Assembly: GCF_001280425.1 (NCBI RefSeq)
Contig: NZ_LIUF01000002.1
Location: forward strand, 620,001-684,000
Source: Haloarcula rubripromontorii
GTDB taxonomy: Archaea; Halobacteriota; Halobacteria; Halobacteriales; Haloarculaceae
Reading direction: 5' to 3'
Length of the DNA: 64,000 nt
Shown piece by piece: positions 29,608 through 34,950 of this stretch; within the stretch, counting starts at the first letter, position 1; each line of letters opens with the position of its first letter. Under the pieces are notes generated by a model. It did not search any database, had not been told where the DNA came from, and saw only the letters and a list, made by a program, of their open reading frames with translations. The translations under genes were made by a program, and so were the position numbers.

Positions 29608-30267
29608 ATGGACCGCCTCGCGAAGCGACAGCTGGTCGGGACCGCCGGGCTGGTGGCAGTCGTCGCTATCGTGACGACGCTGCTTACACCCGAGCGCGTG
29701 GTGGCCCAACTGATGCACCTCGCGGACCATCCTGTCTACCTCGCGGGCGTTATCGTCGGACTGTATCTGGTCCGCCCGTTCTTCGCGTGGCCGACGATGC
29801 CGCTATCCGCGTTCGTCGGCTTCACTCTCGGCATCAAGTATGGCTTCCCGGTCGCACTGATGGGTGCACTCGTCACCTGCCTCATCCCCTACCGCTTCGC
29901 ACTCCGGGCTGGCGAACAGGGTGGGATGTTCGGCTGGCTGGGGGACTCCGGCCGCCGGATCATCGAGGTGACCGGCGAGATGCGGGGCGTCCTCGCAGCG
30001 CGGCTCTCACCGGTTCCCGCGGACCCTGTGTCCTATGGGGCCGGATTCGCCCGCGTCTCGCCCCGGTCGTTCGCCGTCGGTACCTTCCTCGGCGAGATTC
30101 CGTGGGTCGCCGTCGAGGTCACGGCAGGGGCGTCCCTGCGGTCGTTGACGCTCACCGGCCTCACTATCGACGCGCTCCCACACGTCCTGCTGTTTTCTGC
30201 GGCGCTGGCTGTGCTGGTGCTTGCGGGACCGGCCTATCGCCACATCAACGCTCCGAACACGTCGTGA
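29608..30267 (+). CDS. VTT/TMEM64 (DedA-like) family membrane protein
   Basis: A 219-residue polytopic membrane protein. A hydrophobic start (about 10-30) precedes the VTT domain (residues 45-190) with TMPLSAFVGFTLGIKYGFPVAL, the inner repeat, and DPVSYGAGFARVSPRSFAVGTFLGEIPWVAVE, the family's proline/glycine-rich re-entrant motif. Relatives are proposed lipid scramblases or transporters. Its 3' end overlaps the convergent histidine kinase gene by 23 nt. Confidence 0.82.
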   Translation: MDRLAKRQLVGTAGLVAVVAIVTTLLTPERVVAQLMHLADHPVYLAGVIVGLYLVRPFFAWPTMPLSAFVGFTLGIKYGFPVALMGALVTCLIPYRFALRAGEQGGMFGWLGDSGRRIIEVTGEMRGVLAARLSPVPADPVSYGAGFARVSPRSFAVGTFLGEIPWVAVEVTAGASLRSLTLTGLTIDALPHVLLFSAALAVLVLAGPAYRHINAPNTS

Positions 30268-32821
30268 ACTCGAACCGCGCGCCGCCGCTTTCGCTCTCTG
30301 TCACCGACACCGACCAGCCGTGAGCCTGTGCGACCTCAGCGACGATTGCCAGCCCGAAGCCGGTCCCGGTGTCGCTTGTGGTGTAGCCGCGGCCGAACAC
30401 GTCCTGTCGCTCCTCCGGAGGGATTCCGTCCCCGTCGTCGGCCACGTAAAAGCCGTCGTCCGTCGTGCCGACGGAGACCGTCATCGGCGCGTCGTCGTCC
30501 GCTGGGGTCCCGTGTTCCACGCTGTCGTCGGTCCCTGACCGACTGCTCGTGGACCCATGTTCCACACTGTTTCGGAACAGATTCTCGAACACCGTCCGGA
30601 GCCGTGCCGCGTCGGCCTCAACCGTCGCCGTTCCGTGTTTTTCCAGCCTGGCCTCGCCTGTTTCGACATCGGCCCAGGCCTGCCCAGCGAGGGCGGCGAG
30701 GTCAACCATCGTCGTCTCGCCGACCGTCTCGCCCTGCCTGGCGAGGGTCAGCAGGTCGTTGATGAGGTCGTCCATCCGGTCGGCCGCGGACTCTGCCGCC
30801 TCGAGGTGTGATACGTCACCCGATGTCCGGGCGACCGAGATTCGCCCCTTGACCACGTTCAGCGGGTTCCGGAGGTCGTGGCTCACGACGGAAGCGAACT
30901 CCGCGAGCTGCCGCTCTCTCTCTTTCCGGTCGCTGATGTCGCGGATGACGCCCGCCGTGCCGTTGAACTCGCCATCGGCTGCCGGAAGTAACGCGATGTG
31001 GATCTCGATGGGGGTGTACTCCCCGTTCTGGTCGACAATATCGGTTTCGAAGGTCACGTTCTGCCGGGTCGGATCGGACAGCATGGTCCGGATGAGGTCG
31101 CTGCCGCGGTCGATATCATCACCGGCCATGATCGTGGAGATGTGTTCGCCGATGAGCGCGTCCGGTTCGAAGCCCGTCAGTCGCTCTATCGCCTCGTTCG
31201 CGTAGGTGAACACGCCCTCGTCGTCGAGGGTGTACACCGGGTCGCCGACAGCCTCGATGATCGTCTCGTAGCGTTCGAGTTCCCGCTTGCGCTGCTTTCG
31301 TTCCGTCGTCTCACGCATCACACCGACAGAGCCGTCGAAGGTCCCATCCTCGTCGAACAGTGGTGCGATTCTGTCCTCGTTAATCCTGACTGTCCCGTCA
31401 GCGGATATCGTGCGTATCTCGCAGGACGCCCACGTTTTCTCGTCGTCGAGCAGGTCACGAATGAGTTCTGCCGCCTCCTCGACGTCCGCGTCGGGCATGA
31501 ACCGGGCCGGCTCCGAGCCGATGATTTCCGAGCGGTCGTACCCCAGATGGACGGCCATCGCCTCGTTCACCATCTCTATGGTCCCGTCCCTATCGAGGAC
31601 GTACATCGGATCTCCGACGTTTTCAACCAGCGTGCGATACTCTCTGAGCTCCCGCTCTCGACGCTTCCGCTCGGTGATGTCCCGGCCGATCCCGGCAATC
31701 CCGAACGGGTCACCGCGCTCGTCCTCGATGAGCGATCCCTTGAACTCATACTGGAGTTGCTCGCCGTCAGCCGTCTCGACACCTGCCTCGATGGTTCCGT
31801 ATCCGGTCCCCAACGTCTCCTCGAATATCCGCCATAGTTTATCATGGTCAGAATCTACAATGAGGTCGTCAATTCCTATCGACGCTAATTTCTCGTTGGT
31901 GTACCCGGTCACCGACGGGACGGTGTCGTTCCACCGGACCAGGCTCCCGTCGGTACCGACCACGTAGAACATATCGTCGATAGAGTCGATGAGTTTCTCG
32001 GTAAATGCCCGCTGATCCGCGAGTTCCCGTTCGCGCTCCTCGCGGGCAGTGACGTCAGTGATGAACCCTTCGAGGATTTCGACGCCGTCGTCGTCAGTGT
32101 CGACGACACGCCCGCGTTCCCACATCCACCGAGTCTCACCGTCAGCCGTCTCGATCTTGTAGGAGACTTCGAACGGTTCGTCGGCGGCGATGCAGGTCTG
32201 GACCGTCTCCCAGAGACGCTCCGTCTCGGATTCCTCTATGAGCGTGCCCCAGGAAACGTCGCCACTCTCAAGCGCCGTCGAACTGTAGCCGACCAGCTCC
32301 GCTGCACCGTCGCTGACGAACTCCATCGGCCAATCGGGTTCGTTCCGCGCCCGATACACCATTCCCGGAAGGTTCGAGATGAGCGTCGACAGCATCCGCT
32401 CAGACTCTTCGAGCGCGGTCTTGGCCCGTTGTTCCCCTACAGCCCGCTCGATACGGTTCGCGAGCACGGCGTACTGGTCCGTTCCGACTCCCTTCTGCAG
32501 GTATTCGGTGACGCCGGCAGAGATCGCGTCACTCGCGATTTCCTCGCTTCCTTTGCCAGTAAAGAGGATAAACGGGAGTTCCTCGTACTCCTCGCGAACG
32601 ACCCTCAAAAACTCGAGTCCGTCCATGCCCGGCATGTCGTGGTCGCTGACGACACAGTCGAACGCGTGTTCAGATAGTCGCGCTAACCCGTCGGCCGCAC
32701 TTCGCTCGGTACAGACAGAGATGTCGCCGTGCGTTTGCTCTAGATGGACCGCAACGAGGTCACCGAGGTCGGGGTCGTCGTCGACATGCAGCACCGAAAT
32801 CTCTTCCCCGTGACCACTCAT
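30245..32821 (-). CDS. Multi-PAS hybrid histidine kinase
   Basis: An 858-residue cytoplasmic sensor kinase. An N-terminal receiver (1-125, phosphoacceptor D60 in VVSDHDMPGMDG) is followed by four PAS domains (about 142-258, 276-385, 395-507 and 518-632). HisKA has H648 in FASVVSHDLRNPLN, and HATPase closes it with DGDGIPPEERQDVFGRGYT and a G2-type TGFGLAI. Receiver-first, PAS-rich kinases are typical of haloarchaea. I choose the ATG at 32821, preceded by GGGAGGT and a TATA-like element near 32846; the longer reading begins inside the zinc-finger gene. No transmembrane segment is seen. Confidence 0.93.
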   Translation of the reverse strand: MSGHGEEISVLHVDDDPDLGDLVAVHLEQTHGDISVCTERSAADGLARLSEHAFDCVVSDHDMPGMDGLEFLRVVREEYEELPFILFTGKGSEEIASDAISAGVTEYLQKGVGTDQYAVLANRIERAVGEQRAKTALEESERMLSTLISNLPGMVYRARNEPDWPMEFVSDGAAELVGYSSTALESGDVSWGTLIEESETERLWETVQTCIAADEPFEVSYKIETADGETRWMWERGRVVDTDDDGVEILEGFITDVTAREERERELADQRAFTEKLIDSIDDMFYVVGTDGSLVRWNDTVPSVTGYTNEKLASIGIDDLIVDSDHDKLWRIFEETLGTGYGTIEAGVETADGEQLQYEFKGSLIEDERGDPFGIAGIGRDITERKRRERELREYRTLVENVGDPMYVLDRDGTIEMVNEAMAVHLGYDRSEIIGSEPARFMPDADVEEAAELIRDLLDDEKTWASCEIRTISADGTVRINEDRIAPLFDEDGTFDGSVGVMRETTERKQRKRELERYETIIEAVGDPVYTLDDEGVFTYANEAIERLTGFEPDALIGEHISTIMAGDDIDRGSDLIRTMLSDPTRQNVTFETDIVDQNGEYTPIEIHIALLPAADGEFNGTAGVIRDISDRKERERQLAEFASVVSHDLRNPLNVVKGRISVARTSGDVSHLEAAESAADRMDDLINDLLTLARQGETVGETTMVDLAALAGQAWADVETGEARLEKHGTATVEADAARLRTVFENLFRNSVEHGSTSSRSGTDDSVEHGTPADDDAPMTVSVGTTDDGFYVADDGDGIPPEERQDVFGRGYTTSDTGTGFGLAIVAEVAQAHGWSVSVTESESGGARFEFTTCSER

Positions 32822-32867
32822 ACCTCCCTTTTCATTGTTCCAAGCTAATAAACCCGTGAGCGCCTCG

Positions 32868-33095: not shown

Positions 33096-34616
33096 ATGAC
33101 TGACGACCTTCTCGACTCGCCCGGCGGGCGGCTGCTGGTCAGCGCCCTCGCAGCCGTCGCGGGCCTGGCCGGCTCCTACGCGGTCACTGGCTACGCACCC
33201 GCGTTCATCGCCTCGCCTATCGAACGGACGCTCGCACGGTCGATGCCCGGTATCGTCGTCTCGACCGCCATCTCGACGCTTGGCAGTCTCGGCCAACAGT
33301 TGAATCTCCTGTTCGCCATCGCGCTCGCTGGGCTGTTCATCGCACTGGCGGCCAGGGCAGCTATCCTCATCGGGCAACTGGCGAACAACCGCGCCCTCCC
33401 CGTTGTCGGAACAGCTGTCGTCACCTGGGCAGTCAGCGTCGTTCTCACCGGCGAAGTCGTCCTTGCCGCTGGCCCGGCGGTCCCCGCCGCCGCCGTCGTC
33501 GGCCTTGCGCAACTCCTCGACGGATTCAGTGGCTCGGTGTCACCGATATCCTCGAAACGACGGCGGGCGCTCTCGACGGTCGGTGCGGCTGTCGCCGCGG
33601 CAACGGTCGGCTACACGGCTGGTAACCGGCGATCGGTCGCCACGACGGGCGACGACGCGCCCGTACTGAATGCGCCAGGGGCAGACCTCGACGATGTCGA
33701 CGAGAAGCTTGCCGTCGCCGCGGAGTCCTCGCTTGGCTTTGGCGACATAGACCCGCTGGTCAGCGAGAACTTCTACGAGGTCGATATCAACTCCATCGAC
33801 CCGCAGATCTCGGCCGCGGACTGGTCGCTCTCTATCACCGGTGCCGTCGAAAAGGAGATCACGCTCGACTACGGGGACATCCTGGAGATGGACGCCGAAA
33901 ATCGGTTCGTCACGCTCCGTTGTGTGGGGGAGAGCCTCAACGGCTACAAGACGGATAACGCGCTCTGGACCGGCGTTCCCGTCGACAGCCTGCTCGAAGA
34001 AGCCGGCGTCCAGAGCGGCTGTGAGTGCGTGATGCTCCGAGCTGAAGACGACTACTACGAAGAGTTCCCCATCGACGCGCTCCGGGGCGGGATGCTCGCC
34101 TACGGTATGAACGGGAAGATACTCCCGCGCGGCCACGGCTACCCCGTCCGGGCGCTCGTTCCCGGCCACTGGGGCGAGGTCAACGTCAAGTGGATCTCGG
34201 AGATCGAAGTCCTTGACAAGGAGGCCGACGGCTACTGGGAGAAACGCGGTTGGCAGGGGACCGGACCGGTGAATCCGGTCGCCAAACTCCACCACGAATC
34301 GATGCTTTCGGACGGCCGTCGGCGGATCGGCGGCCCCGCCTACGCCGGCCTGCGCGGCGTCCAGCGCGTCGAGGTCTCCACCGACGGCGGCGAGACGTGG
34401 GCGGACGCGACGCTCTCGGAGCAACTGCCGGCGGCCGACGGCAACGGTCCCGCTGAGGACGCGTGGCGACAGTGGGAGTACACCTACGACCCGCCCTCGG
34501 GCGGCCACACCGTTGTCGTTCGGATGGTCGACCAGCGCGGCGAAGTGCAGCCCGAGGAAGAAACGGACTCCTATCCCAGCGGTGCCTCGGGCTGGGTCTC
34601 CAAACAGTACTCGTAG
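33096..34616 (+). CDS. Membrane-fused sulfite-oxidase-type molybdopterin oxidoreductase
   Basis: A 506-residue protein. Residues 1-180 hold four helices (about 12-33, 52-65, 70-93, 103-140), then a basic patch and a further hydrophobic helix (KRRRALSTVGAAVAAATVG, about 154-172). Residues 215-400 are the Moco domain of the sulfite oxidase family, with candidate Mo-ligand Cys276 in FVTLRCVGES, and GHWGEVNVKWISEIEV. Residues 400-506 are the Ig-like dimerisation domain (VQRVEVSTDGGETWADA). The substrate is unknown; sulfite or a sulfoxide-like compound is plausible. The internal RRR-helix looks like a Tat-type signal, which would send the Moco domain outside. Confidence 0.88.
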   Translation: MTDDLLDSPGGRLLVSALAAVAGLAGSYAVTGYAPAFIASPIERTLARSMPGIVVSTAISTLGSLGQQLNLLFAIALAGLFIALAARAAILIGQLANNRALPVVGTAVVTWAVSVVLTGEVVLAAGPAVPAAAVVGLAQLLDGFSGSVSPISSKRRRALSTVGAAVAAATVGYTAGNRRSVATTGDDAPVLNAPGADLDDVDEKLAVAAESSLGFGDIDPLVSENFYEVDINSIDPQISAADWSLSITGAVEKEITLDYGDILEMDAENRFVTLRCVGESLNGYKTDNALWTGVPVDSLLEEAGVQSGCECVMLRAEDDYYEEFPIDALRGGMLAYGMNGKILPRGHGYPVRALVPGHWGEVNVKWISEIEVLDKEADGYWEKRGWQGTGPVNPVAKLHHESMLSDGRRRIGGPAYAGLRGVQRVEVSTDGGETWADATLSEQLPAADGNGPAEDAWRQWEYTYDPPSGGHTVVVRMVDQRGEVQPEEETDSYPSGASGWVSKQYS

Positions 34617-34659: not shown

Positions 34660-34950
34660 ATGGACGAGACGATTGCCGGTGAGGTCATTCACGTCGTCCC
34701 GCCGGCCGATCACGAGGACTACGACTTCGAGCCCGAGATGGCGTCGCTCGCCGAATCGCGCTACGTTATCGTCTGCCGCAAAGGCGGGACGCCGTCGTGG
34801 CTCGAACGGATTGCAGCATTTCTCCGCCGCCAGCCCATCGAACCAATCACACTCGTCGCAGATTCGGCAGCCGAGGAAGGGACAGAAATCACCGCGACCG
34901 TCGAGGAAACGACGATTACCGGCGTGTACGACGTGACGGAGTTCCGGTAG
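34660..34950 (+). CDS. Hypothetical 96-residue protein
   Basis: A small acidic protein. An N-terminal strand (AGEVIHVVPPADHE), a short helical middle (PSWLERIAAFLRRQP) and a final beta segment (EITATVEETTITGVYDVTEFR) suggest an alpha/beta fold. It begins 43 nt after the molybdoenzyme gene on the same strand. The ATG at 34660 is preferred because the longer reading starts inside that gene. Family not recognised. Confidence 0.6.
   Translation: MDETIAGEVIHVVPPADHEDYDFEPEMASLAESRYVIVCRKGGTPSWLERIAAFLRRQPIEPITLVADSAAEEGTEITATVEETTITGVYDVTEFR

Follow-up and report, generated by a model that had tools for sequence, protein, structure and literature searches.

How does a Moco enzyme reach its place in the cell when its catalytic domain stands behind several membrane helices, and what might such an enzyme act on? 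A gene in a 64,000-nucleotide stretch of Haloarcula rubripromontorii DNA (contig NZ_LIUF01000002.1; the window below is this whole stretch) raises both questions. A first-pass annotation, made from the letters and their open reading frames, read the product as a sulfite-oxidase-type Moco domain joined to four N-terminal helices, a KRRR motif and a fifth helix, and proposed that the motif is an internal Tat-like signal behind Sec-inserted helices. We followed up this proposal by comparing the protein, and its gene neighbourhood, with those of its relatives.

Methods

Relatives were gathered from named genomes (12 loci), from 292 haloarchaeal genomes and from plasmids; among the matches listed by the 292-genome search, 30 loci and 80 further stretches were taken. 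This gave 127 proteins. Seven were duplicates and one, L014, was a paralogue; the 119 others were aligned (115 haloarchaeal and 4 bacterial). Helix statistics use 114 archaeal proteins, with L119 omitted for its truncated chosen start. One further relative, at G065:C1:109567-110968, seems to be interrupted, with two matching pieces and a stop inside each. Insertion energies (dG) and the hydrophobicity scan use approximate parameters.

Neighbours were counted at 86 haloarchaeal loci, each taken with up to 4-6 kb of flanking sequence; together these hold 7581 mechanically called ORFs. L119 is kept among these loci, though its upstream test has no meaning, and L082, a copy of L011, is left out. 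An ORF is called methionine-rich if it has at least 8 Met within 60 residues, and the counts were also run at thresholds of 10 and 6. The FastTree phylogeny holds 102 archaeal rows; twelve near-identical Haloarcula rows, L119 and the four bacterial rows were left out of it.

Gene and domain layout

Read as an ORF, the gene runs on the plus strand from an ATG at 33096 to a stop codon ending at 34616 and encodes 506 aa (Table 1). Its nearest named relatives are from Haloarcula species (89-92% identity), and the host genome is 3.97 Mb. The C-terminal half belongs to the sulfite oxidase (Moco) superfamily, since it has both the Oxidored_molyb domain and the cysteine ligand: C276 aligns with the cysteine of MsrP and with that of three sulfite oxidase/dehydrogenase sequences, and all 115 archaeal members have Cys at this position. 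Residues 1-155 have zero Pfam matches up to E 10.

The hydrophobicity scan finds segments at residues 12-34, 69-91, 103-125, 123-141 and 155-175. An AF2 model made with 11 sequences, of modest confidence (mean pLDDT 64.4, pTM 0.55), has helices at 9-31, 36-49, 52-95, 101-118, 125-143, 153-179 and 198-211, with the Moco fold after them. Scan and model concur on four membrane helices, then the KRRR of residues 154-157, then a fifth helix, so the layout given in the first-pass annotation holds, as does its Moco domain on a membrane part. A poor additional scan segment at 46-65, where AF2 gives a low-confidence helix, was discounted as a membrane helix on its dG of 3.0.

Table 1. Features of the membrane-fused Moco gene and its immediate neighbours (window coordinates)
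Feature	Position	Strand	Basis or remark
Receiver-PAS-histidine kinase, divergent to the Moco gene	30245-32851	-	
Membrane-fused Moco protein gene	33096..34616	+	Stop codon counted in
TM1, residues 12-34, predicted N-in	33129..33197	+	Hydrophobicity scan; AF2 helix 9-31
TM1-TM2 loop, residues 35-68, predicted outside; conserved P51, G63	33198..33299	+	Weighted conservation
TM2, residues 69-91, most hydrophobic of the helices	33300..33368	+	Hydrophobicity scan
TM3, residues ~103-122	33402..33461	+	Scan; AF2 helix 101-118
TM4, residues ~123-141	33462..33518	+	Scan; AF2 helix 125-143
KRRR, residues 154-157, internal twin-arginine site	33555..33566	+	RR pair conservation; MsrP signal alignment
TM5, residues 158-177, weakly hydrophobic, proposed uncleaved Tat signal-anchor	33567..33626	+	Scan; AF2
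RR, residues 178-179, positive charges right behind TM5	33627..33632	+	Family count of K/R
Oxidored_molyb, residues 236-381	33801..34238	+	Pfam, E 2.1e-39
C276, presumed Moco cysteine ligand	33921..33923	+	Alignment
Mo-co_dimer (dimerisation domain), residues 406-489	34311..34562	+	Pfam, E 1.4e-9
DUF7526 protein, 96 aa, directly downstream, same strand	34660-34950	+	

The internal twin-arginine site

A lone RR makes weak evidence for a Tat signal here, because the pair is common in these arginine-rich proteins; we judge an RR that is fixed at one place to be strong evidence. As controls, an additional RR lies ahead of the site in 61 of the 114 archaeal members, and the TM2-TM3 loop, whose basic residues are 247 R and 6 K, has an RR inside it in 37 of 114. 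At the KRRR site, an RR pair covering R156 is present in all 119 distinct relatives. Weighted conservation over the 115 archaeal rows is 1.00 for R156 and 0.97 for R155, values that within the first 200 residues are equalled, besides the start Met, only by P51 (0.99) and G63 (0.97). None of residues 70-154 reaches 0.85, and the distance of the RR from a fixed point in TM4 varies among relatives from 10 to 25 residues.

The Tat signal peptide of E. coli MsrP (KRRQVLKALG) aligns onto KRRRALSTVG of the window protein, although with so short a signal the RR itself accounts for part of the alignment, and the match to the NCBIfam MsrP profile begins at residue 153. Judged by their sequence, helix 5 and the enzyme half resemble a Tat-anchored protein of the MsrP/Sor type to which a domain of four helices has been added in front. 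TatC has three matches in the same genome.

Topology and assembly

Mean net loop charge (K+R minus D+E, 114 proteins) takes the values +0.45, -0.31, +1.29, -0.23 and +1.85, an alternation that an N-in, Moco-out topology predicts. The window protein itself has an acidic N terminus, with one R against three D, and two R in the outer loop predicted for it. On topology prediction, which had been suggested as a check, the family-mean charges fit N-in and Moco-out, but the first two loops of the window protein fit N-in less well than the mean does.

With the approximate dG parameters, the predicted insertion energy of TM5 is above 0 in 97% of the 114 proteins, and the same is true of TM1 in 89%, TM3 in 81% and TM4 in 96%. 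Ranked by dG, TM5 comes highest in only 40 of 114 proteins, and by Kyte-Doolittle value it comes lowest in 57 of 114. Low TM5 hydrophobicity was tried as a diagnostic mark and failed, TM1, TM3 and TM4 being equally weak. At least one K or R lies near the end of TM5 in 101 of 114 proteins; the window protein has two.

Our proposed assembly is as follows. Helices 1-4 would be inserted via Sec with the N terminus inside, and the weak helix 5, with RR ahead of it and positive charges behind, would be left uncompleted by Sec. The Moco domain would fold and acquire its cofactor in the cytoplasm. Tat would recognise the internal RR and carry the Moco domain out, and helix 5 would stay as an uncleaved anchor. 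From the comparison of sequences, we consider dual-route Sec/Tat assembly likely. The internal Tat-like signal of the first-pass annotation is thus supported by the invariant RR, the family loop charges, the MsrP alignment and the TatC genes, and its premise that folded Moco proteins need Tat export applies if the domain lies outside, but not otherwise.

Could the RR instead be a positive-inside topology signal and nothing more, with helix 5 not crossing the membrane and the Moco domain cytoplasmic? Arginine is the usual basic residue in these proteins, so the missing lysine at the site says little; TM5 is weakly hydrophobic; and the N-terminal loops of the window protein are a poor fit to N-in. 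Open frames of ~205 aa with sulfite-oxidase-like matches also occur in these genomes, so the fold need not be exported. However, a topology signal alone accounts poorly for an RR that is kept in 119 of 119 relatives despite its 10-25-residue spacing, when the TM2-TM3 loop keeps one in 37 of 114, and the alignment onto the MsrP signal peptide and the positive charges behind TM5 speak against a cytoplasmic domain as well. So do the methionine-rich proteins encoded upstream in relatives, which by eye appear exported, many with Tat-type lipobox starts. We therefore hold a cytoplasmic Moco domain to be quite improbable and continue with dual-route assembly.

Relation to known dual-targeted Moco proteins

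The first-pass annotation took the actinobacterial Rieske proteins as its precedent. The principle is the same, but a closer precedent exists in Sco3746, a five-helix MoCo protein. Tooke et al. 2017 assigned three kinds of protein to the dual Sec/Tat route, namely five-TMD MoCo proteins (Sco3746), polyferredoxins and YkuE-like proteins, and their reporter fusions showed it for members of the first two groups (PMC5449189). Sco3746 needs both the RR and Tat, and the authors proposed that a weak last TMD followed by positive charges makes Sec let go (PMC5449189). The five-helix dual Sec/Tat MoCo kind is thus already known from that work.

Our first conclusion was that the window protein belongs to the same haem-MoCo family, and we dropped it on the histidine count and on the fit of published helix energies. 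The TMDs of the published family have haem b histidines, three of them conserved (PMC5449189). The window protein has zero His before the RR, as do 64 of 114 relatives, and the commonest His column before the RR is filled in 28 of 114. For lack of histidines, haem binding by the membrane domain of the window protein was rejected. His 67 and His 70, which lie near the start of TM2, occur in 28 and 19 of 114 relatives, respectively (e.g., L077, L083, L095, L102).

The same genome encodes a paralogue (L014/L159; 356 aa; G000:C1:454515-455582 (-)) that has five helices and an RR, and whose Moco domain lacks the dimerisation domain. Its membrane part weakly resembles cytochrome b561 (Pfam E 0.01, below the cut-off), and all 30 homologues fetched keep the RR and His 51, 119 and 133. 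To judge from these residues, the paralogue likely represents the haem-MoCo dual-targeted family of haloarchaea. On plasmids, a full-length match to it was absent (80% coverage of the query was reached in 0 of 35 records).

A Haloprofundus protein, listed in Table 4 of Tooke et al. among the euryarchaeal homologues they name (PMC5449189), allows a direct comparison. With the approximate parameters, the nearest histidine-bearing family protein lies at 0.51 from its published helix energies and the nearest window-family protein at 2.31; the 12 closest of 144 proteins are all haem-type. We take the published haloarchaeal example to fit the family of the histidine-bearing paralogue better than the window family.

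These observations bear on whether the window protein could nonetheless be a plain Sco3746 orthologue within the published haem-MoCo family, a reading that is compatible with the others considered here. It shares the plan of five helices and a MoCo domain with RR before TMD5, euryarchaeal homologues including the Haloprofundus protein have been reported, and the published helix positions of Sco3746 give a 37-residue TM1-TM2 loop (62-98), close to the spacing in the window family (PMC5449189). Orthology is nevertheless unlikely in view of the three conserved TMD histidines there and none before the RR here, of a distinct paralogue, encoded by this genome, with RR and invariant His 51, 119 and 133, and of the Haloprofundus energies lying nearest to the histidine-bearing family. 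Because haem histidines are lacking and those energies fit the paralogue, the window family is probably a separate, haem-free sister architecture, set apart from Sco3746 by its published description.

Gene neighbourhood

At the window locus, the divergent kinase and the Moco gene start ~245 bases apart, if the kinase starts at 32851. A ribonucleotide reductase gene also lies at this locus, and the neighbours of the Moco gene here are uninformative. Among the haloarchaeal loci, a partner conserved across all haloarchaea was not found: composition-filtered neighbours gave mainly genus-level genes and a winged-helix gene, the latter directly downstream of the Moco gene at 17 of 86 loci (assigned by Pfam for one). 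Just downstream in L010 and L052 lie a small winged-helix regulator and then a membrane protein of ~95 aa.

One kind of neighbour does stand out in relatives. Only 23 of the 7581 ORFs are methionine-rich, and 16 of these, from 16 different loci, share the strand of the Moco gene and end immediately ahead of it. At least 8 Met are thus found in 16 of 275 upstream ORFs vs 7 of 7306 others (Fisher p 1e-18), at least 10 in 13 of 275 vs 0 of 7306 (p 1e-19) and at least 6 in 21 of 275 vs 47 of 7306 (p 1e-14), with all three p values overstated, as ORFs and loci are not independent. Haem-type control loci, which are shorter (~4 kb) and include one row with a doubtful start (L171), give 0 of 30 at the threshold of at least 8 Met and 1 of 30 at that of at least 6. 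At 70 of the 86 loci, an upstream ORF passing the 8-Met threshold is absent; of 29 additional loci, whose flanks are short, two pass this threshold and one comes close to it. The pairing recurs across the family and is not the mark of one clade, because on the FastTree phylogeny the 18 rows with at least 8 Met require 12 changes (shuffled mean 16.8).

By eye, the methionine-rich proteins appear exported: some have low-complexity repeats (e.g., MDDGSMENET) behind a Tat-type lipobox start, and others have repeats ahead of a C-terminal membrane segment. Inspection also found a lipoprotein-like protein with a methionine-rich linker upstream at 10 of 86 loci, three of these 10 being among the 16 above threshold. 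Acidic, methionine-rich, low-complexity proteins of exported appearance are seen at L009:5314-5938, and the same type lies upstream of the Moco gene in L010, L049, L059, L066, L071, L077, L087, L099, L106 and L111; in most of these loci, the methionine-rich ORF abuts or slightly overlaps the Moco gene.

The window locus itself has no methionine-rich neighbour, and one search for such a partner elsewhere in its genome gave weak matches to the lipoprotein start only (best E 8.9e-4). Among the matches listed in open-licence literature, the haloarchaeal association was not found, and it is unmentioned in the portions consulted of PMC9751292, on chlorine redox biology, and of PMC10151825. The methionine-rich ORF directly upstream of these haloarchaeal Moco genes is new here.

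Bacteria offer a parallel. In the Brucella bcrS-abcS-bcrXQP locus, an ECF sigma/anti-sigma pair drives a methionine-rich repeat protein and MsrPQ under hypochlorite (PMC8315932), and the prototype, as cited there, is MrpX-YedY1 of Azospira (Melnyk et al. 2015). Among the actinobacterial relatives of the window protein, 7 of the 9 annotated loci opened have a fasciclin-domain gene nearby and 4 of 9 a sigma or anti-sigma gene; the Thermus locus has one sigma and one anti-sigma gene. The fasciclin-adjacent loci are L127, L128, L129, L152, L156, L157 and L158, and some of these proteins have Met in a linker. It is possible that the haloarchaeal methionine-rich proteins are archaeal counterparts of MrpX. 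In the relatives that have one, the apparently exported upstream protein would serve as a sacrificial oxidant sink and be regenerated by the enzyme.

The catalytic half

Members of the window family may reduce methionine sulfoxide in the cell envelope, although the profile and fold searches lean another way. NCBIfam scores are 119.5 bits for SorA (cut-off 600), 110.8 for SoxC (420) and 88 for SorT (570), all missing their cut-offs, and the MsrP profile NF003767 gives 61.8 bits against a cut-off of 207, also a miss. The best PDB relatives by sequence are SorA and other sulfite oxidases, and a fold search with the AF2 model gives SorA at E 7.9e-21 and MsrP at E 3e-10. In sequence, in modelled fold and in domain make-up, then, the catalytic half appears nearer to the sulfite dehydrogenases, which counts against a reductase.

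An active-site arginine near the N-terminal end of the domain is characteristic of sulfite-oxidising enzymes. In our alignment, the three sulfite oxidase/dehydrogenase sequences have this Arg with a nearby His, and the window protein has FYEVD there. At 225-235, Arg is absent from the window protein and from 99 of 115 archaeal members in all, and is present in 16 of 115; the bacterial relatives have an Arg there that is shifted by one. A haem partner was not seen at the loci inspected.

The main competing reading keeps the same dual Sec/Tat assembly and makes the enzyme a sulfite dehydrogenase akin to SorA/SorT/SoxC that works outside the cytoplasm, with the methionine-rich neighbours incidental or concerned with metal or oxidant handling. 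Its strength is that SorA comes top in NCBIfam and in the PDB, by sequence and by fold, and that the dimerisation domain is present. It has to contend, however, with a SorA cut-off that is missed by far, with the missing Arg and nearby His (the bacterial Arg being shifted), with recurrent neighbours among which, by eye and without annotation, a cytochrome c was not recognised, and with methionine-rich neighbours that are highly non-random. On balance, a sulfite dehydrogenase seems rather unlikely.

Methionine sulfoxide reductase is the reading that fares somewhat better than its rivals. The exported enzyme would most likely reduce an oxidised sulfur compound, and the first candidate, by analogy with MsrP, is the methionine sulfoxide of envelope proteins. 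Taken jointly, dual Sec/Tat assembly and reduction outside of an oxidised sulfur compound, methionine sulfoxide first, come out in our estimate at just above an even chance, a figure lowered slightly because the window protein's own loop charges count against N-in.

Significance

If the reading is right, dual-route assembly has a second MoCo family, separate from the published one. It would add a haem-free set to the few proteins thought to need Sec and then Tat, and the family supplies 119 natural variants around the hand-over helix. A 2018 review describes archaeal sulfite-oxidase-family Mo enzymes as widespread and, in the portion cited here, as not known to reduce methionine sulfoxide, with MsrP noted in archaea as not common (PMC6211008). 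The methionine-rich neighbours make this archaeal MsrP gap (PMC6211008) testable in a genetically tractable halophile. By analogy with the bacterial systems, we tentatively picture a haloarchaeal MrpX-MsrP-like shield, in which an acidic, methionine-rich exported decoy would be paired with a haem-free, one-polypeptide, Sec/Tat-built methionine sulfoxide reductase; we put this somewhat short of an even chance.

Comparison with known systems

The window protein resembles the Sco3746 type in its four TMDs, its RR directly ahead of TMD5, its weak TMD5 with positive charges behind and its C-terminal MoCo domain. It differs in having no haem b histidines, the histidine-bearing haloarchaeal family being the separate paralogue. 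In Sco2149, an actinobacterial Rieske protein (Keller et al. 2012), Sec-inserted helices are followed by an internal Tat signal and then a cofactor domain (PMC5449189), the order proposed here for the window protein; Sco2149, however, has three helices and an FeS domain.

With MsrP/MsrQ (E. coli yedYZ), the window protein shares the sulfite-oxidase fold, a Tat signal that aligns on KRRR and an envelope location (predicted here). MsrP, however, is a separate soluble protein whose electron donor, MsrQ, is a separate haem protein, and the window protein additionally has the dimerisation domain. That domain, together with the Moco domain and the best sequence and fold matches, is shared with SorA/SorT/SoxC, whereas the window protein scores far under the cut-offs of those families and lacks the Arg with its nearby His. 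Finally, as in MrpX-YedY1 and BcrXQP, relatives of the window gene have a methionine-rich protein encoded beside a sulfite-oxidase-family enzyme, and sigma/anti-sigma genes adjoin some of the bacterial relatives. Unlike MrpX and BcrX, the window locus has no methionine-rich partner and no MsrQ was seen, the haloarchaeal methionine-rich proteins are acidic, and the enzyme and its membrane part form one polypeptide.
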